Source: Advenella sp. FME57 (GTDB taxonomy: Bacteria > Pseudomonadota > Gammaproteobacteria > Burkholderiales > Burkholderiaceae_B). Taken from it: 64,000 nucleotides of DNA. Each line of letters begins with the position of its first letter. Position 1 is the stretch's first letter. A model generated the notes under the pieces. That model did no database searches. It was not told the origin of the DNA and saw only the letters and a program-made list of their open reading frames with translations. The DNA lies in the NCBI RefSeq assembly GCF_014897675.1, contig NZ_JABUXU010000004.1, forward strand, positions 1-64,000, in the 5' to 3' direction. The position numbers were made by a program, and so were the translations under genes. Below are positions 29,085 to 38,255 of this stretch, piece after piece.

Positions 29085-31190
29085 TTATTTGCTGCGGGCG
29101 CTGATGACTTCTTCGGCAACGTTCTTCGGAGCTTCAGCGTATTGCTTGAATTCCATCGTGTACGTTGCACGACCCTGTGTCAGAGAACGCAGATTGGTTG
29201 CATAACCAAACATTTCCGCCAGTGGCACTTCGGCTTTAATCACTTTACCGCCACCAACCATATCGTCCATACCCTGAACCATACCACGGCGTGAGGACAG
29301 GTCGCCCATCACTGTACCGGCGTAATCTTCAGGTGTTTCCACTTCTACAGCCATCATCGGCTCCAGCAGAATCGCCTGGGCCTTGCGCATCCCTTCCTTG
29401 AAGGCCATGGATGCGGCCATGCGGAAGGCATTTTCGTTCGAGTCAACGTCATGGTAAGAACCGAAGAACAGGGTTACCTTGACATCAACAACCGGATATC
29501 CGGCAACGACACCGGCAGACAGAGTTTCCTGAATACCTTTGTCAACAGCAGGAATGTATTCACGAGGAACCACACCGCCCTTGATCGCGTCGACGAATTC
29601 GTATCCGGCGCCACCAGGAGGCAGCGGTTCCAGTTTCAGTACAACGTGACCATACTGACCACGACCACCGGACTGTTTAACGAATTTGCCTTCAACTTCT
29701 TCACATACCTTGCGGATGGTTTCACGGTAGGCCACTTGTGGTTTACCCACGTTGGCTTCCACGTTGAACTCGCGCTTCATGCGGTCTACCAGAATTTCCA
29801 GGTGCAGCTCGCCCATACCGGAAATGATGGTCTGGCCTGATTCTTCGTCACTGCGCACGCGGAAGGACGGATCCTCTGCGGCCAGACGAGACAGGGCCAT
29901 ACCCATTCTTTCCTGGTCAGCCTTGGTTTTTGGCTCGACTGCCTGTGAAATCACCGGCTCAGGAAATACCATGCGCTCGAGCATGATATGCGAATCCACG
30001 TCACACAGGGTTTCACCTGTTGTCACGTCTTTGAGGCCGACCACAGCGGCGATGTCGCCTGCCAGCACTTCCTTGATTTCTGCGCGGTTGTTTGCATGCA
30101 TCTGCAGAATCCGGCCGATACGCTCTTTTTTACCCTTGATCGGGTTGTAGACTGTATCGCCAGAGGCCAGAACGCCCGAATAAACACGCACGAAAGTCAG
30201 CTGACCAACGAAAGGATCGGTCATCAGCTTGAATGCCAGCGCAGAGAATTTTTCCTTGTCATCGGCCTTGCGGCTAATGGGGTTACCCTCATCGTCTTCG
30301 CCGGTAACAGGAGGAATATCGGCCGGTGACGGCAGAAAGTCGATCACTGCATCCAGCATGCGCTGCACGCCCTTGTTTTTGAACGCGGTGCCGCAAAGCA
30401 TGGGTTGAATTTCACATGCAATGGTGCGGATACGAATCGCCTGGGTGATTTCCTCTTCGCTCAGCTCGCCGCTCTCAAGGTATTTTTCCATGAGTTCTTC
30501 GGAAGCTTCGGCAGCAGTTTCAACCAGTTTTTCACGCCATTCATTGGCAGAGTCCACCAGTTCGGCAGGAATATCCAGGTATTCAAACTTGGTACCCTGG
30601 CTGGCCTCGTCCCAGATGATGGCTTTCATCTTGATCAGATCGACCACGCCTTTGAAGCTGTCTTCAGCACCGATAGGAATGACGATAGGTACAGGATGGG
30701 CGCGCAGGCGCGTTTTCAACTGGTCAAAAACCTTGAAGAAATTTGCACCGGTGCGGTCCATTTTGTTCACGAAGGCCAGACGCGGCACTTTGTACTTGTT
30801 GGCCTGACGCCATACTGTTTCGGATTGGGGCTGAACGCCGCCTACTGCACAGTAGACCATGCAGGCGCCATCGAGCACACGCATGGAACGTTCAACTTCA
30901 ATCGTGAAGTCAACGTGTCCCGGTGTATCGATAATATTGATGCGGTGTTCCGGATAGTTACCCGCCATGCCCCGCCAGAAAGCGGTGGTCGCGGCTGAAG
31001 TAATGGTAATACCGCGTTCCTGTTCCTGCTCCATCCAGTCCATCGTTGCTGCACCATCGTGCACTTCACCGATTTTATGGCTCACACCGGTATAAAACAG
31101 AATACGCTCTGTAGTTGTCGTTTTACCAGCGTCAATGTGGGCAGAAATACCGATGTTGCGGTATCGTTCGAGCGGGGTTTTGCGGGCCAT
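29085..31190 (-). CDS. fusA: Elongation factor G
   Basis: A 701-residue translocation GTPase. Motifs: G1 [13 protein letters not shown]2 region [12 protein letters not shown]3 DTPGHVDF, G4 FVNKMDR. Domains II-V follow, with [15 protein letters not shown] and the C-terminal [10 protein letters not shown] segment. It catalyses tRNA-mRNA translocation and, with RRF, ribosome recycling. The start follows AAGGACACAACC. It lies 15 bases after rpsG in the classical str order. Confidence 0.98.
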
Positions 31191-31205
31191 GGTTGTGTCC
31201 TTAAA

Positions 31206-31676
31206 TTACCAGCGGAAATGGGAGAAGGCTTTGTTGGCCTCTGCCATTTTGTGTGTGTCTTCACGCTTTTTCATTGCAGAGCCGCGGCCTTCGGCCGCAT
31301 CCATCAGCTCCCCGGCAAGACGAAGGTCCATTGATTTTTCACCGCGTTTTTTCGCGGCTTCACGCAACCAGCGCATTGCCAGTGCGAGGCGACGAACGGG
31401 ACGGACTTCGACGGGTACCTGATAGTTGGCACCACCCACGCGACGGCTTTTAACCTCGACGATGGGTTTGATGTTGTTGATTGCCAGGTTGAACACTTCA
31501 ATAGGTTCTTTACCTGTTTTGGCCTGAACATGATCAAGCGCGCCATAGATGATACGTTCTGCGACGGCTTTTTTGCCTGCCAGCATGACAACGTTCATGA
31601 ATTTTGCAAGATCAACACTGCCGAATTTTGGATCAGGCAGGATCTCGCGTTTTGGGACTTCGCGACGACGTGGCAT
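31206..31676 (-). CDS. rpsG: 30S ribosomal protein S7
   Basis: A 156-residue full-length S7 with the start [20 protein letters not shown] and the [17 protein letters not shown]-like C-terminal region. S7 nucleates assembly of the 30S head. The 188-base rpsL-rpsG spacer is the position where S7 autoregulates translation in E. coli; whether that holds here cannot be seen. AAGGAAGTACA precedes the start. Confidence 0.98.
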
Positions 31677-31864
31677 TGTACTTCCTTAGAGTGTCTGTTT
31701 CAGTTGAACCACTTGCGTGGCCGTGGCTGCCTATATGAGAGGTCAGCCCCTTACGTACCGCAGATATTTTTTCTCGCAGCTGCGGCTGCACGCTTACCAA
31801 CCGGTGGGAAGGAAGCATTTTTTGTGCGTGAGCACCAAACCGGGTGAAACCGTTGAAAAGCGAA

Positions 31865-32242
31865 TTACGCTTTCTTCGGACGTTTCGCACCGTATTTGGA
31901 ACGCGACTGTTTACGGTCCTTGACGCCTTGCAGGTCAAGTGAACCGCGCACGATGTGATAGCGCACACCTGGGAGATCTTTTACACGACCGCCACGAACA
32001 AGAACCACGGAGTGTTCCTGCAGGTTGTGACCTTCACCACCGATATACGAAATAACTTCGAAACCGTTGGTCAAGCGCACTTTGGCAACTTTACGCATCG
32101 CAGAGTTAGGTTTTTTAGGTGTGGTGGTATACACGCGAGTGCATACGCCACGACGCTGAGGGCAGTTTTCAAGTGCAGGACTTTTGCTGCTCTCATGGCT
32201 GCTTACGCGCGGTTTACGCACGAGCTGGCTAATGGTTGGCAT
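31865..32242 (-). CDS. rpsL: 30S ribosomal protein S12
   Basis: A 125-residue full-length S12, beginning [12 protein letters not shown] and containing the decoding-site segments [19 protein letters not shown] (the lysine of PKKPNS is the usual streptomycin-resistance position, unmodified here) and [17 protein letters not shown]. It starts the str operon. No rpoC gene lies upstream; a two-component operon diverges from it instead. Confidence 0.98.
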
Positions 32243-33083
32243 GACCTTCTATCCTATTTCATGTACAGGAAACCTGTACCGATTTATATTTGCGTCTGTT
32301 TTACGTACTGACGTTAATGTACGCCCGGGAAAGAATGGACAGCAAAGTCGCGATGGTAGCGCCGGCATATGACCGGAGCGTGTCGGGACTGTTCGGCCAG
32401 GTTTCTCTCTTGCTGAAAAAACCTGTACAGGCTTTGTGCATTGCAGATGACCAACACGACTGTTGCTTTTATGCACGTTGCTGTGTTGCCCGCCTGCATG
32501 TTGCTTTGGCACGACATTCTAACCAGGATACTGCTCTTAAAATTGTGCTCCCGAAGATGTCTTCGCGCCCGATTGTGAAGGGAAAGCTCCAGAGAAGTTT
32601 GCGTGAAACGTTCAATAGAATATTGCTTTGCCACAAACTACCGGGGCCAGTCACGTTACATGTTCCGCTTCCTGATTGATGCGCCTTGCGCTCAGCGCAT
32701 GTTTGCGCCAGGCTGCTACACCAACTTGGAACCAGCATCATTTCGCCTGCAAAGCTATAAGTTCACAAGCCGCGTGCACACGAATATTGCAACTGACGGA
32801 CATGCAACTGAAAGCGTCAAAAGGCGCCTTTCACAAAGCGCCTGTCGGCGAAACGACCATATAACAGAGACCTTAAAACAACCAAAGAGCAACAAGTCTT
32901 ACTGCTATTACCCAGCGCTATTACCACTAGGTAGCCCGTCACATTAACACAATCCCCATAAAACGTCAAGAAAACAGTACGTTGCAACCCAGGAGAATTG
33001 CGCAGCTAGCAACAGGCAAAAGGTCGAAAAATGGTTCGGCATTTACGCTCTTTGGCGAAATAGTCCATAAAAAACAACGGTTT
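32243..33083. promoter_or_regulatory. Long leader/intergenic region upstream of rpsL
   Basis: This 840-base gap between the divergent rpsL and response-regulator genes must hold the str operon promoter, probably with a long leader. Several open frames cross it on both strands but lack codon bias and recognisable protein similarity, so I leave them out. A minus-strand TTGGTT...TATATG pair near 32860-32886 is a weak promoter candidate. No terminator-like hairpin was found. Confidence 0.4.
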
Positions 33084-33092
33084 TGCTATAAT
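33084..33092 (+). promoter_or_regulatory. Extended -10 promoter of the two-component operon
   Basis: TGCTATAAT at 33084-33092 is a perfect -10 hexamer with the TGn extension, about 80 bases upstream of the response-regulator ATG. There is no good -35 hexamer at 16-18 bases, as is usual for extended -10 promoters. A small stem, CCCGC/GCGGG, lies just downstream in the leader. Confidence 0.55.
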
Positions 33093-33174: not shown

Positions 33175-33924
33175 ATGAAGATTGCCATACTAGAAGATGA
33201 TCTCGCCCAGGCGGCGCAAATGGTGCAGGCAGTAGAAAAAATGGGGTATGGCTGCACGCATTACAGCTCAGGCAAGGAACTCATGTCTGCCCTGCGGGAT
33301 CCCGAAATGTTCAATCTGCTCATTCTCGATTGGGAATTGCCCGAAATTACCGGTAAGGATGTGCTGGCCTGGGTGCGCAGCAACATCGGCTATTCCCTGC
33401 CGGTGCTGTTCCTGACCAGCCGGACCAGTGAAGAAGACCTGGTCGAAGCCATCGAGGCCGGCGCCGACGATTACATCGCCAAACCCTATACAACCCAGGC
33501 CTTGCGCGTGCGCATACTGTCGCTGCTGCGGCGCGCCAATCCGGCCGATGTCGACAATACGGTGATCGAAGTGGGCCCCTACCACATCGACACGCAAATG
33601 CGCTCGGTGCGCCTGCACAACGAAGCAATTGCACTGGCGCCCAAGGAATTTGACCTGGCGGTTCTGTTTTTCCGCAATATGGGGCGGCTGTTCTCCCGTG
33701 ATGCGCTCAGCGCATCCATCTGGAATCGCGAAATTCCGGCAACCTCCCGCACCCTGGACACCCATTTGTCCAACGTCAGGCAAAAGCTGCAGATTCGCCC
33801 GGAGAACGGCCTGCGCATCGTCTCATCGTACGCACTGGGCTACCGCCTGGAAGCGGTAACTGAACCCGCAGCCTCGGACACCCCGGCCCAGCCCAAACAG
33901 ACCCGCATCTCCGACCTGACATGA
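33175..33924 (+). CDS. OmpR-family response regulator
   Basis: A 249-residue regulator: receiver domain (residues 1-118) with the acidic cluster ED at 7-9, phospho-acceptor Asp52 (LLILDWELPE), and Lys in DDYIAKPYT. A winged-helix DNA-binding domain follows (about 128-228; KEFDLAVLFFRNMGRLFSRD). The ATG at 33175 follows AGGA; the frame upstream is not conserved. Its stop overlaps the start of the FecR-domain gene (ATGA), and a CHASE2 histidine kinase follows, so kinase and regulator are probably cognate. Confidence 0.92.
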   Translation: MKIAILEDDLAQAAQMVQAVEKMGYGCTHYSSGKELMSALRDPEMFNLLILDWELPEITGKDVLAWVRSNIGYSLPVLFLTSRTSEEDLVEAIEAGADDYIAKPYTTQALRVRILSLLRRANPADVDNTVIEVGPYHIDTQMRSVRLHNEAIALAPKEFDLAVLFFRNMGRLFSRDALSASIWNREIPATSRTLDTHLSNVRQKLQIRPENGLRIVSSYALGYRLEAVTEPAASDTPAQPKQTRISDLT

Positions 33925-35033
33925 GAGTATCCAGAGCAATCCTGATCTACCTGCTGGCCTTCCTTGTTGGCGGGTCGCTGGTCAGCGGCGCCGCTTTCGG
34001 TCAGGCGGCCGGTGCGCGCGGCGACTTTTTCACCTACCGGTTTGTTCCCGGCGATATTTTGCTGACGCTGTCGCAGCGTTTTACCCAGAATCGGGAAAAC
34101 TGGAAAACCATCCGCGAAATCAACGGCATAGCTGATCAATACAAGATTCCTGTCGGCTTCGAACTGAAAATTCCATTTTCCCTGATTGACGAAGTCCCTG
34201 CCAGCGCGACCATTTCGCACTTGCGCGGACAGGCGTTTCTTAACGGCTCGCCGATTGCGCAAACCGGCGGTCAGATCAGCGAGGGCGCGGTCGTTACCAC
34301 GGGCCCTAACAGCAACGTTACCCTGACCCTGCCGGATAACAGCAAGGTACTGGTTCCCGTCAACAGCACAGTCACCGCCAAACGGCTGCAGCGCTTTTCG
34401 GGCACCGGGTATATCGACGCCATCTTCACCATCGACCGCGGGGAAGTCCAGAGTCATGTCAACCCCGGCGGCGAAGGCGTGGGGCGCTTTGAAATCCGCA
34501 CCCCAGTGAGTGTTACCGGAGTTCGCGGCACCATCCTGCGTGCAGGAACCCGCCAGGGCCAGGGCGCTTACAGCGCCATCATCAAGGGACAGGCAGATTT
34601 CTCGCCGGCCGATGGGGTCTCGCTCACCAGGCTTGGCAGCAACCAGGGCGCGGTAACGGATGGTGCCGGAAAGCCGTCGGGAACGCACGCATTGCTGGCG
34701 CCCCCGGTGTTGCATCCGATGGACGCGCAATCACACAACCGTCAGCTTCGTTTCGATCCGGTTCCGGGCGCCGTTGCCTATGAGCTCGTCCTGGCCGAAG
34801 ACAGCGAGGGCTATGACGTGCTCTGGAGCCAGCGCATTACCGGGACCACGGCCACACTGCCGGCGGTACGCAACGGTACTGTTTACGTGCTGGTGCGCTC
34901 CATTGACCAGCAGATGCTAGCCGGCGGCCACGCAGTACTGCAAATCGAGCAAACCATGAATACGATCAATGACGGACAAGGATCGCCCGTCGGCATCGGC
35001 AACGGCAGCTACCTGCTGCATTCCACGTTTTAA
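33921..35033 (+). CDS. Periplasmic LysM- and FecR-domain protein
   Basis: A 370-residue exported protein. It has an N-terminal signal peptide or anchor (residues 6-28), a LysM-like module (about 36-88; YRFVPGDILLTLSQRF), a FecR domain (about 105-215; EGAVVTTGPNSNVTLTLPDN and VTGVRGTILRAG) and a C-terminal fibronectin-like region (about 265-350). LysM suggests contact with peptidoglycan; FecR domains relay signals at the cytoplasmic membrane. It lies between its probable partners, a response regulator and a CHASE2 sensor kinase, in a coupled operon. A role as accessory sensor for the kinase is inferred. Confidence 0.85.
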   Translation: MRVSRAILIYLLAFLVGGSLVSGAAFGQAAGARGDFFTYRFVPGDILLTLSQRFTQNRENWKTIREINGIADQYKIPVGFELKIPFSLIDEVPASATISHLRGQAFLNGSPIAQTGGQISEGAVVTTGPNSNVTLTLPDNSKVLVPVNSTVTAKRLQRFSGTGYIDAIFTIDRGEVQSHVNPGGEGVGRFEIRTPVSVTGVRGTILRAGTRQGQGAYSAIIKGQADFSPADGVSLTRLGSNQGAVTDGAGKPSGTHALLAPPVLHPMDAQSHNRQLRFDPVPGAVAYELVLAEDSEGYDVLWSQRITGTTATLPAVRNGTVYVLVRSIDQQMLAGGHAVLQIEQTMNTINDGQGSPVGIGNGSYLLHSTF

Positions 35034-35048
35034 CCGGCAGCAGGCGCA

Positions 35049-37415
35049 ATGCGGGGTTCGCTTGGCCGACGCTTTCATCGTGAATGGATTCTGGTTACGG
35101 CGCTGATCCTGACCGTGACCGCGCTATGCAGCCAGTTTTCGATGCTGTCGCGTTTCAGTTTTGCCCTGTACGATGTGGCCGTTAGCTACACGCAAGAGCG
35201 GCAGCCGGACCCGGATATTGCCATTGTCGTGATCGACGACAAGAGCCTGGCGCAAATCGGTTTCTGGCCGTGGGAGCGGAGTGTTCACGCCAACCTGCTG
35301 ACATCGCTGCGCAATGCGCGCGCCGTCGGATTCGATATTCTTTTTACCGACGCCGATCCGCATGACCCTCTGGTCGATCAAAAGCTGGCGCAGGCCATCG
35401 AACGCAACGGCAAGGTGGTGCTGGCCAATTTTCTGACCGGTCCCGGACAGCAGTTGCCGGTCAACCCCATTGCCAAACTTGCTCAGGCAGCCCGCGCGCT
35501 GGGCTTTATCAATATTGTGCCTGATTCCGATGGCATGGTGCGCCGTATCCGTCTGACCGCGCCCCAGGACAGCACGCAACAGCACTTTGCCCTATCGATG
35601 CTGGCCGTTGGGGGCGATACAGCAACCTCCGCCTCGCTCACCGCGCGCAGCAAGGAGCAACCCTATCTGATCCCCTATGTAGGCGCGCCGCTCACCTTCC
35701 CCATGATGTCGTACAGCGACGTGCTGTTTGGTCGAATTCCGGCCAGCTATTTCGACAACAAATATGTTTTGATCGGCGCATGGGGAACGGGGATGGGCGA
35801 CCGTTTTCCGACGCCGGACTCCACAGGTGCCATAGACAATATGTCGGGGGTCGAGATCCTGGCCAACGTGTTGCAATCGACGCGTGAAGGTAACTGGATT
35901 ACCGAGCCCGGGAAAATGGCGCACACCCTGATTTCCCTGGTGCCGGTGCTATTGCTGCTGATTGCGATCAGGCAACTGTCGCCGCGTCGTGTCCTGCTTG
36001 CCACGCTGGTGGCGCTGTTGCTGGTGCTGGCCGGTTCCCTGCTGATGCTGGCGCTGGGCAACTACTGGATAACTCCTGTCGCGGCCATGAGCGGGATTGC
36101 GCTGACCTACCCCGTATGGAGCTGGCGCACGCAGGAAATGGCCCTGAACCAGATGAGTTGGGAAATGAGCGAACTCAATCGCGAGTACCCCTTGCTGCGG
36201 GCAGAGATGGCACTGGCCGATACGCCTCAGAAATTTCACTTGTCGTTAAATGAACGGATCATGGAGTTGCGCTTTGCGCTGAACCGGGTGCGTTCGCTAC
36301 GCCAGTTCATCAGTGACAGCTTCAATGCCATTCCGGACCCGGCCCTTGTCTTTGACGCCAACCATCAGCTTACCCTGTGGACCAGCAGTGCCAAACGGTA
36401 CATGGCCAGCCTGGGCGATCTGGCGCTGACCGAAGGGCTGCCGGTGCAGACTTTGCTCAATGCCATTATTCCCGATGCACCGACATGCCGTGAACTGGCG
36501 GCAGCGATCGAGCACCCTGAGCGCACCCTGTCGGGACAGACACCGGAAACAGGCAATAGTGCTGCAGCATGGATCCATGCCGAGGAAGGATTCGAAGTGC
36601 GTGATCGCGCCGGCAATGACCTGCTGCTCAAATCCATGCCCACCTATACCGCCGGCCGTCGCCGCTCGGGATACATCCTGAACCTGATTGATATCAGTGC
36701 GCTGCGTCAGGCCGAACGCAAGCGTGATGACACCTTGCGATTCATCTCCCATGATATGCGGGCGCCACAGAACTCCATTCTTGCACTGATCGACTTGCAG
36801 GCAGATGCGGCGCGCGCCCTGCCCACCAACGAGCTATTGCAACGCGTCAGTCATCTTTCGGAAAGAACCATCGGCCTGGTGGAAGACTTTGTACAATTTA
36901 CGCGGGCTGAAAAAGCCGACATCGAATTTGTACCGCTTAATCTGAGTGATCTGCTGCAGGACGCAATCAATGAACTCTGGGTCGATAGCCGGACCCGAAA
37001 TATTCCCATTGTGAGCAACATCACGCCGCTGTGCGCCTTTATCAAGGGGGACCAGTCATTGCTGATGCGCTGCCTGGGCAATTTGCTGGACAACGCCTTC
37101 AAATACAGTGCGGACAACACAACGGTCACATGCAGCCTGACCTCGGCAGGCGACTTCTGGGAAGTCAGCATCCGCGATGAGGGCTGCGGCATCAGTGAGC
37201 AGGATCAGCAACACCTGTTCACGCTATTTACCCGTGTAGGCGCGGCCCGTGAACAAGACCCCGGGGGCCTGGGCCTTGGCCTGGTTTTTGTCAAAACCGT
37301 AGTCACGCGCCATCATGGGGATATTCGCGTACAGTCGGCACCAGGCCATGGGTCTACTTTTATTATCCGCCTGCCTAAAGATGAGGTTGAAGAATCCGCC
37401 GGGCCTTCTCTATAA
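35049..37415 (+). CDS. CHASE2-domain sensor histidine kinase
   Basis: A 788-residue membrane sensor kinase. N-terminal membrane span (about 14-33), an extracytoplasmic CHASE2 domain (about 40-285; DIAIVVIDDKSLAQIGFWPW), three more spans (about 290-360), a PAS-like region (about 415-550), HisKA with His568 in FISHDMRAPQNSI, and HATPase_c with N-box NLLDNAFKYS, G1 DEGCGIS and G2 GGLGLGLVFVK. All kinase motifs are present. It starts 15 bases after the LysM/FecR gene. Its 3' end overlaps the convergent lyase gene by 41 bases. Confidence 0.92.
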   Translation: MRGSLGRRFHREWILVTALILTVTALCSQFSMLSRFSFALYDVAVSYTQERQPDPDIAIVVIDDKSLAQIGFWPWERSVHANLLTSLRNARAVGFDILFTDADPHDPLVDQKLAQAIERNGKVVLANFLTGPGQQLPVNPIAKLAQAARALGFINIVPDSDGMVRRIRLTAPQDSTQQHFALSMLAVGGDTATSASLTARSKEQPYLIPYVGAPLTFPMMSYSDVLFGRIPASYFDNKYVLIGAWGTGMGDRFPTPDSTGAIDNMSGVEILANVLQSTREGNWITEPGKMAHTLISLVPVLLLLIAIRQLSPRRVLLATLVALLLVLAGSLLMLALGNYWITPVAAMSGIALTYPVWSWRTQEMALNQMSWEMSELNREYPLLRAEMALADTPQKFHLSLNERIMELRFALNRVRSLRQFISDSFNAIPDPALVFDANHQLTLWTSSAKRYMASLGDLALTEGLPVQTLLNAIIPDAPTCRELAAAIEHPERTLSGQTPETGNSAAAWIHAEEGFEVRDRAGNDLLLKSMPTYTAGRRRSGYILNLIDISALRQAERKRDDTLRFISHDMRAPQNSILALIDLQADAARALPTNELLQRVSHLSERTIGLVEDFVQFTRAEKADIEFVPLNLSDLLQDAINELWVDSRTRNIPIVSNITPLCAFIKGDQSLLMRCLGNLLDNAFKYSADNTTVTCSLTSAGDFWEVSIRDEGCGISEQDQQHLFTLFTRVGAAREQDPGGLGLGLVFVKTVVTRHHGDIRVQSAPGHGSTFIIRLPKDEVEESAGPSL

Positions 37416-38184
37416 CCGGCATATCCACCATCTGGCCATCCAGCTTAAAGGCAGCCCGCCCGCTTTGCTGATGCTCATCCAGCACGCGCTGGGCCCAGTC
37501 CTTTTCCTGCGCCGTGGGTTCAAAGACGTCATGGATCACCGCCAACTGGGCAGGATGAATGCAGAGCGCCCCCGCAAACCCCATGCCTTTGGCCAGCGCA
37601 ACCGATTGCCTGAGCCCGTCGGTATCTGAAATATCCGGAAAAACGCCATCCAGTGGCGCATCAATGCCCGCTGCCCGGCTTTGGATCACCAGTTGTGGAC
37701 GCACCGCCGCCAGCAGTTGCTGCGCCCCTTGCGAGTCGCGATCCATGTTCAGGTCCAGCGCCAGATCCAGTGCGCCAAAAGACAGTCGCGCCACACCCGG
37801 CGCCTGGCACAGTTCGGGCATCCGCATGATGCCCATAGCGCTTTCAATGATCGGGTAGACCGGCTTTTTGGCCATCCCTGCGGCCTTGATCTGTGACTCG
37901 CTTTCAGCCTTCGGCAGCATCACGCCTGTGATATTCGCCAGCTTCGCGCAAAGGGCAATATCATCGTTGAACCAGCGGCTGCGCGCATCATTGACACGTA
38001 ACAGAAACTGCTGTTCGGGATTGGCGGTGGCAAATTCGCGCAGCGCATCGCGTGCGCTTTGCTTGGCATCCTGTTCCACCGCATCTTCCAGATCGACGAT
38101 GACAATATCGGCGCCGCTGGCCAGCGCCTTGGGAATTCTGTCAACCCGGGTGGCAGGGACAAACAGCGCGGATCGCATTTTCAT
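37375..38184 (-). CDS. HpcH/HpaI-CitE family CoA-ester lyase
   Basis: A 269-residue TIM-barrel lyase of the CitE/citramalyl-CoA lyase/malyl-CoA lyase group. Features: RSALFVPATRVDRIPKAL, metal-site IVDLEDAVEQDAK, MLPKAES, YPIIESAMGIMRMPEL and FGALDLALDLNMD. ATG 38184 is preferred because AAGGAG lies ten bases upstream; a TTG three codons earlier is too close to it. It is the last gene of the hydratase/CoA-transferase operon. Cleavage of citramalyl-CoA to acetyl-CoA and pyruvate, or of a similar 3-hydroxyacyl-CoA, is inferred from context. Confidence 0.87.
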   Translation of the reverse strand: MKMRSALFVPATRVDRIPKALASGADIVIVDLEDAVEQDAKQSARDALREFATANPEQQFLLRVNDARSRWFNDDIALCAKLANITGVMLPKAESESQIKAAGMAKKPVYPIIESAMGIMRMPELCQAPGVARLSFGALDLALDLNMDRDSQGAQQLLAAVRPQLVIQSRAAGIDAPLDGVFPDISDTDGLRQSVALAKGMGFAGALCIHPAQLAVIHDVFEPTAQEKDWAQRVLDEHQQSGRAAFKLDGQMVDMPVIEKARRILQPHL

Positions 38185-38255
38185 GACTGGCAAACTCCTT
38201 GTTTATTACGGGTGGCAGCGCTCGTCTGGCCCCGCCTGTGTATATTTACTGGCCG

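Follow-up and report, generated by a model that had tools for sequence, protein, structure and literature searches.

The BiofilmReg operon was described and named from Burkholderia contaminans, in which a plasposon inserted into its response regulator gene abolishes biofilm formation (PMC5192318). Three-gene forms of the operon have been reported for Achromobacter, Bordetella and Ralstonia, and a form with an AraC gene for Alcaligenes faecalis (PMC5192318). In Burkholderia cenocepacia HI2424, 6 of 20 suppressors of the wrinkly colony type were mutations in Bcen2424_1436, and the CHASE2 kinase is Bcen2424_1438 (PMC4324302). The regulator Bcen2424_1436, named RowR, has been tied to polysaccharide and biofilm (PMC8552884, PMC4324302). 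We infer that RowR is the BiofilmReg regulator, HI2424 being among the strains treated in PMC5192318. Here we analyze a stretch of 64,000 nucleotides of Advenella sp. FME57 (contig NZ_JABUXU010000004.1, positions 1 to 64,000), called the window in the following, in which a response regulator, a LysM-FecR protein and a CHASE2 sensor histidine kinase are encoded at positions 33175-37415. The initial annotation of this DNA had called the design little studied; this did not hold, because the same operon has been published as BiofilmReg (PMC5192318). The operon is an ordinary member of the described system, and the general module of FecR and CHASE2 is the part worth following.

The three open reading frames (ORFs) lie on the plus strand, as do all of their features given below, between rpsL and a convergent minus-strand ORF. 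The first (33175..33924) encodes an OmpR/PhoB-type response regulator of 249 amino acids with the Pfam domains Response_reg and Trans_reg_C, that is, a receiver with the phospho-acceptor Asp52 and a winged helix. The second (33921..35033) encodes the LysM-FecR-FN3 protein ("PBP" of BiofilmReg), which was assigned from its ORF, its Pfam matches and a structure model, and which is presumably secreted. The third (35049..37415), assigned from its ORF and Pfam matches, encodes the CHASE2 sensor histidine kinase. The stop codon of the regulator gene and the start codon of the LysM-FecR gene overlap by four nucleotides (ATGA), and a gap of 15 nucleotides separates the stop codon of the latter from the ATG of the kinase gene. 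The initial annotation was thus right in placing a trio with these domains here, with Asp52 and His568 at the correct positions, and in describing the genes as translationally coupled or nearly so.

The kinase comprises 788 amino acids. Pfam assigned a CHASE2 sensory domain to residues 23-303 (35115..35957; E 8.8e-52) and an HATPase_c domain to residues 667-778 (37047..37382; E 4.1e-27). A HisKA-like region at residues 559-621 (36723..36911), which includes His568, scored under the Pfam cut-off (19.6 versus 26.9 bits) and was recognized by its motif FISHDMRAP. The N box (NLLDNAFKY), the G1 box (DEGCGI) and the G2 box (GLGLGLV) were found within the HATPase_c domain. With the Asp in the receiver, the sequence motifs expected of a two-component pair are present. 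A model of kinase residues 1-404, including CHASE2, reached a pLDDT of 93.4. Comparison of CHASE2 with solved structures yielded no sequence relative at E<=0.1 and no Foldseek match at E<=0.001; the best VIA Z of the CHASE2 model was 4.8, which is not proof of a new fold.

In the LysM-FecR-FN3 protein, which has 370 amino acids, the Pfam cut-off was passed by FecR (E 1.3e-10) and also by LysM (E 4.2e-5). An AlphaFold2 model based on 41 sequences (mean pLDDT 89.7) predicted, in this order, a signal-peptide-like N-terminal helix (residues 3-19), the LysM domain, the FecR domain and a C-terminal beta-domain. The helix belongs to a signal-peptide-like N-terminus at residues 1-29 (33921..34007) that was recognized by eye in the sequence. 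The LysM domain (residues 39-85; 34035..34175) is matched by solved LysM chains and likely binds peptidoglycan. The FecR domain was placed by Pfam at residues 124-223 (34290..34589), and residues 120-259 of the model matched the periplasmic signalling domain of PupR (6ovk_R) with a Z of 16.1 and an rmsd of 2.3 over 129 aligned residues. The beta-domain, at residues 257-347 (34689..34961), had not been named in the initial annotation. In the model it resembles fibronectin-III (FN3) structures with a Z of about 10 to 11.5; the Pfam scan of the protein gave no FN3 match.

The initial annotation had also stated that FecR domains normally talk to sigma-factor systems. This applies to another branch of FecR proteins, represented by a further FecR protein of the same genome that has a DUF4880 domain and adjoins an ECF sigma factor gene. 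The window protein gave no DUF4880 match in a Pfam scan at E<=1, and there is no sigma factor gene in the trio, the neighbors of the FecR gene being those of the regulator and the CHASE2 kinase. Because it lacks DUF4880, unlike the sigma-linked FecR protein of the same genome, the LysM-FecR protein is not a usual anti-sigma factor.

The conservation of the trio was analyzed in a family set of 121 genomes, 74 of which contained CHASE2, with 89 matches in total. The window and 80 fetched matches together gave 81 family CHASE2 genes; eight matches (short or low-scoring, G082, G093:C232) were omitted. Among these genes, 64 encode intact kinases of the window's type. All 64 have a response regulator gene upstream on the same strand, and a FecR domain is encoded upstream on the same strand at 62 of the 64 loci (window included). 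A profile of the LysM-FecR protein, for which at most 16 candidates were scored per genome, gave 68 matches in the 121 genomes at E<=1e-15 (63 of them nearly full-length). Downstream of all 68 matches among those scored, CHASE2 is encoded on the same strand at a distance of at most 2 kb; the five weakest adjoin CHASE2 genes outside the window's kinase type. A genome contains up to 27 FecR matches; by simple arithmetic, the expectation that one of them lies by chance within 2 kb on a given side and strand is below 1%. The arrangement is not due to chance, because the kinase loci so regularly keep the upstream FecR gene and every profile match has CHASE2 downstream. These results bear out the earlier description of the three genes as one unit, with the FecR protein as a regular neighbor of CHASE2. 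The regulator, LysM-FecR, CHASE2 and the kinase core were present at 80 of 80 named loci retrieved via the LysM-FecR gene, 61 of which contained rpsL. For the 64 family loci with a kinase core, rpsL was found at 46 and not at 18, in one case because the contig ends; the location beside rpsL is thus common, not universal.

Apparent absences of the FecR gene at L107, L126, L099 and L185 were artefacts of long stop-to-stop frames, and tblastn recovered the gene in each case. Single-frame fusions of FecR and CHASE2 were not found in 140 loci and the window; a frame of 1349 amino acids at L126 overlaps the FecR gene, but in the wrong frame. At L140:4801-7400, the CHASE2 kinase frame is interrupted by one in-frame stop, located after CHASE2 and before the kinase core, and is otherwise open, which may represent decay or a sequencing error. 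At L203 and L204, loci of the same class, a FecR gene and a CHASE2 kinase gene are present and the nearest regulator match is on the opposite strand, an arrangement reminiscent of Pseudomonas aeruginosa PA4032 and PA4035/PA4036.

The explanation that we favor, with about even confidence, is that the trio represents BiofilmReg/RowR in the three-gene form of the Alcaligenaceae and that its LysM-FecR-FN3 protein is a periplasmic co-sensor that tunes the CHASE2 kinase. The kinase would sense by its periplasmic CHASE2 domain and hand phosphate from its His568 on to Asp52 in the receiver of the regulator. Judging from the relatives, the regulator may in turn control genes for the envelope, for exopolysaccharide or for biofilm at other places in the genome. 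As an accessory component, the LysM-FecR-FN3 protein would be secreted to the periplasm, where LysM could anchor it on peptidoglycan. Its FecR domain, with the predicted PupR fold, would contact CHASE2, report to it and tune the kinase. In this way the protein probably assists in the sensing of the cell envelope by the kinase.

Several observations weigh against this explanation. At L133 (genome G115, which, like G040, G071 and G095, is of the same genus as the window) and at L161 (G068), the regulator gene is directly followed by the kinase gene at rpsL/fusA. With the window's LysM-FecR protein as query, no match was found in these two genomes at E<=0.001; they hold 4 and 26 other FecR matches, respectively. 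Both kinases keep the His motif and the N, G1 and G2 boxes, although the G1 and G2 boxes of L133 were missed by the motif patterns and were seen when its sequence was read beside that of the window. The distances of CHASE2 to three outgroups were slightly larger for L133 than for the window (0.444/0.460, 0.465/0.476 and 0.415/0.437), and the kinase core of L133 was farther than that of the window from two of the three. A clear acceleration of CHASE2 after FecR loss was not seen, the change being slight at most. Furthermore, LysM is absent from some FecR proteins of the kinase type, e.g. that of L204, and no FecR domain was found within the stretches fetched for L202 and L228. From the published side, the insertion in B. 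contaminans stops the whole operon and thus gives no information on the FecR gene alone (PMC5192318). The biofilm phenotype comes from Burkholderia. In addition, the predicted phosphate donor of Bcen2424_1436 is WspHRR, with the CHASE2 kinase as the alternative (PMC4324302).

Because sister lineages have the FecR gene, its loss in the lineages of L133 and L161 is the simplest reading of these loci. As the kinase is complete at the two loci that lack the FecR gene, the FecR protein is probably a modulator rather than an obligatory part. A kinase that is active without the FecR protein, the outcome that the initial annotation had set against its own proposal, is hinted at by these two loci with a regulator and a complete kinase.

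Covariation was quantified starting from 100 loci with all genes, of which 81 remained after a coverage filter and 46 after removal of near-copies. Distances were regressed on those of EF-G, S7, the response regulator and the kinase core, and labels were permuted without respecting the tree. In the 46 dereplicated operons, CHASE2 and FecR distances had a partial r of 0.206 (permutation p 0.004; jackknife 0.165-0.235), with a peak of 0.328 at residues 189-248. With the same operons and controls, CHASE2 was not correlated with LysM (0.058) or FN3 (0.005). When FecR was cut to 70 random columns, the mean was 0.169, and 1% of the draws were at or below the FN3 value. Other controls add to the points against a specific pairing: 6% of these draws were at or below the LysM value; when the kinase core was not controlled for, FecR correlated about equally with the kinase core (0.289) and CHASE2 (0.274); and LysM correlated with the kinase core at 0.204 after removal of EF-G, S7 and the regulator. 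The covariation of FecR and CHASE2 is weak and unspecific to CHASE2, with a permutation that ignores the tree, and counts as no more than a hint.

One alternative is that the CHASE2 kinase and the regulator work alone and that the FecR protein is a losable peripheral modulator or serves another signal. L133 and L161, which retain regulator and kinase with all four motifs intact and have no LysM-FecR match elsewhere, fit this alternative, as do the rate of CHASE2 in L133, which changed slightly at most, and the unspecific covariation. Nevertheless, we regard it as unlikely, because FecR is retained at 62 of 64 intact kinase loci and all 68 profile matches lie at CHASE2.

The neighborhood of FecR and CHASE2 extends to other receptors. 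The FecR gene is upstream of 11 of 17 further family CHASE2 genes, or 10 of 16 when the window-type kinase L140 with its one stop is excluded; the six without FecR are distant and low-scoring. In a phylum set, CHASE2 was found in 227 of 398 genomes, and 60 regions with 63 CHASE2 genes were hand-picked among the matches with the highest scores, so that the following ratios do not represent a random sample. For the kinases, a FecR domain is encoded upstream in 13 of 15 cases. Of the other 48 CHASE2 genes, 18 have FecR within 5 kb and 30 show none. The orientation in the 18 cases is mixed: FecR is upstream and same-stranded in 8 of them, and in 4 of these 8 it lies within 2.2 kb. The counts from family and phylum indicate that FecR pairing is strict for the window's kinase type and loose elsewhere. 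Pfam typing, which covered part of the non-kinase receptors, named L093 (family), L209 and L192 (phylum) as cyclases, and FecR proteins adjoin the CHASE2 cyclases L093 and L209. LysM was not found in the scanned FecR proteins beside these two cyclases or beside L164, L165 and L227, receptors of another or an untyped kind.

A FecR tree was calculated with a quick method from 81 domains and 120 columns; the rows were 28 hand-picked kinase-type domains, 28 of other types and 25 canonical ones from the 30 top-scoring family FecR loci. The 56 CHASE2-linked rows were separated from the 25 canonical rows (99), and a kinase-type group of 27 rows was formed (support 92), with L227 among the others (87). 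In the CHASE2 tree, 30 kinase rows formed one group (99), and L227 and L228 were again among the others. L227:2265-6200 and L228:2595-6140 (minus strand) encode CHASE2 phosphorelay kinases with HisKA, HATPase, two receivers and Hpt. Because FecR and CHASE2 of L227 are both of the other type, the output was apparently exchanged while the pair was kept together, and L227/L228 would represent an independent change of output. FecR and CHASE2 domains of the Burkholderiales loci L182 and L183, which have a fourth gene with DUF4136 (just past the cut-off in L183), fall among the kinase-type rows, together with the window, in both trees.

The FecR proteins beside CHASE2 cyclases and the grouping of the L227 pair with non-kinase rows suggest that FecR and CHASE2 may together make up a sensory module whose outputs can be exchanged. 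We propose, tentatively, that a secreted FecR branch and CHASE2 constitute one conserved receptor of two parts, to which two-component kinases, phosphorelay kinases or adenylate cyclases have been coupled, and in which FecR would pass its signal to CHASE2 and LysM would tie the kinase version to the cell wall. The same data make it rather improbable that the LysM-FecR protein is no sensor at all but a regulated output, such as an envelope or matrix protein. LysM and FN3 are frequent in structural envelope proteins, and the shared operon would suit such a role. However, FecR also stands beside the cyclases L093 and L209 and, at the loci analyzed, near further CHASE2 genes (10 of 16 in the family set and 18 of 48 in the hand-picked phylum set), and the FecR domains linked to kinases and to other kinds of CHASE2 group against canonical FecR. 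A disguised FecR/FecI sigma-factor system, to which the FecR domain and its PupR-like fold could point, is hardly credible given the missing DUF4880, the missing sigma gene in the trio and the separate tree branch, when the canonical FecR of the same genome has both DUF4880 and a sigma neighbor.

The targets of the regulator had been called unknown. For relatives this needs to be corrected, because outputs in biofilm and polysaccharide are partly known (PMC5192318, PMC4324302, PMC8552884). Comparison of upstream regions by eye revealed a candidate promoter stretch at 33073..33092 (plus strand) with a TATAAT box at 33087-33092. It looked alike in the window, L236, L237 and L133, not in L238 and L239, and it was not among the promoters listed by a promoter scan. 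A regulon search with this stretch in the window's own genome gave no target; the sole exact match was the operon itself, and one further match with three mismatches compares with one match for a backward control pattern. A block of about 110 bases farther upstream (about 32877-32988) is near-identical in Advenella incenata and Advenella S44 and recognizable in L133; it may be part of the region that contains the promoter of the divergently transcribed rpsL operon.

The host belongs to Advenella (Alcaligenaceae), and its genome contains one CHASE2 match. The closest named relative of the LysM-FecR protein is from Advenella incenata (91% identity; records of the own genome were possibly omitted from the listing), followed within the genus by strain S44 (72%) and Advenella alkanexedens and Advenella faeciporci (41%). 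The flanking minus-strand ORFs at 29085..32242, which serve as locus markers outside the signalling system, are presumably fusA, rpsG and rpsL (31865-32242), judging from their sequences. On the other side, the convergent ORF at 37375-38193 (minus strand), which resembles a CitE/HpcH-type lyase, shares 41 bases with the 3' end of the kinase gene. Its homologue is convergent there also in Advenella incenata, S44, Advenella alkanexedens, Advenella faeciporci and G115, and likewise in two Pelistega records and G085. Scans of the window for tRNAs and Rfam families found none.

The ligands of CHASE2 have been called unknown (PMC10581220). If the FecR neighbor is a CHASE2 co-receptor, what CHASE2 senses becomes testable for a widespread domain (74 of 121 genomes in the family set, 227 of 398 in the phylum set). 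Advenella would then offer a natural comparison, since its close species differ in whether this locus contains the FecR gene. A published test of this operon's FecR protein was not found in the literature searched, which included few subscription journals. The present analysis adds the family-wide pairing of FecR and CHASE2, the branch separate from sigma-linked FecR proteins, the neighbors with other outputs, the loci without FecR and the covariation.

Compared with known systems, the locus is closest to BiofilmReg. Both have the regulator, LysM-FecR and CHASE2 kinase genes in the same order on one strand, and in both the LysM-FecR gene starts inside the regulator gene. The three genes also lie beside rpsL in Achromobacter ruhlandii, Achromobacter xylosoxidans, Achromobacter insuavis and Alcaligenes faecalis (L268, L296, L284 and L248), these being other strains of species for which BiofilmReg was reported (PMC5192318). 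The Burkholderia operon has a fourth gene with DUF4136, whereas in the window the downstream ORF is on the opposite strand; as three-gene forms without DUF4136 are in print, this difference excludes only the Burkholderia form. The RowR system shares with the window a regulator followed, two genes on, by a kinase with CHASE2 and PAS domains, but the text of PMC4324302 does not mention FecR, LysM or 1437 and proposes WspHRR as donor. In Campylobacterota, CHASE2 adenylate cyclases are clustered with a FecR protein (PMC9239204), so that FecR stands beside the CHASE2 receptor as in the window, although the cyclase output differs. The Sinorhizobium meliloti CHASE2 cyclases CyaD1, CyaD2 and CyaK respond to plant uL2 via the outer-membrane protein NsrA (PMC13001267) and provide a precedent for a CHASE2 signal that arrives via a partner protein, albeit with another partner and a cyclase output. 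Finally, the PupR/FecR anti-sigma regulators have the FecR fold predicted for the window protein (6ovk_R), but they carry DUF4880 and adjoin an ECF sigma factor gene, whereas the window protein has neither and begins with a signal-peptide-like segment.

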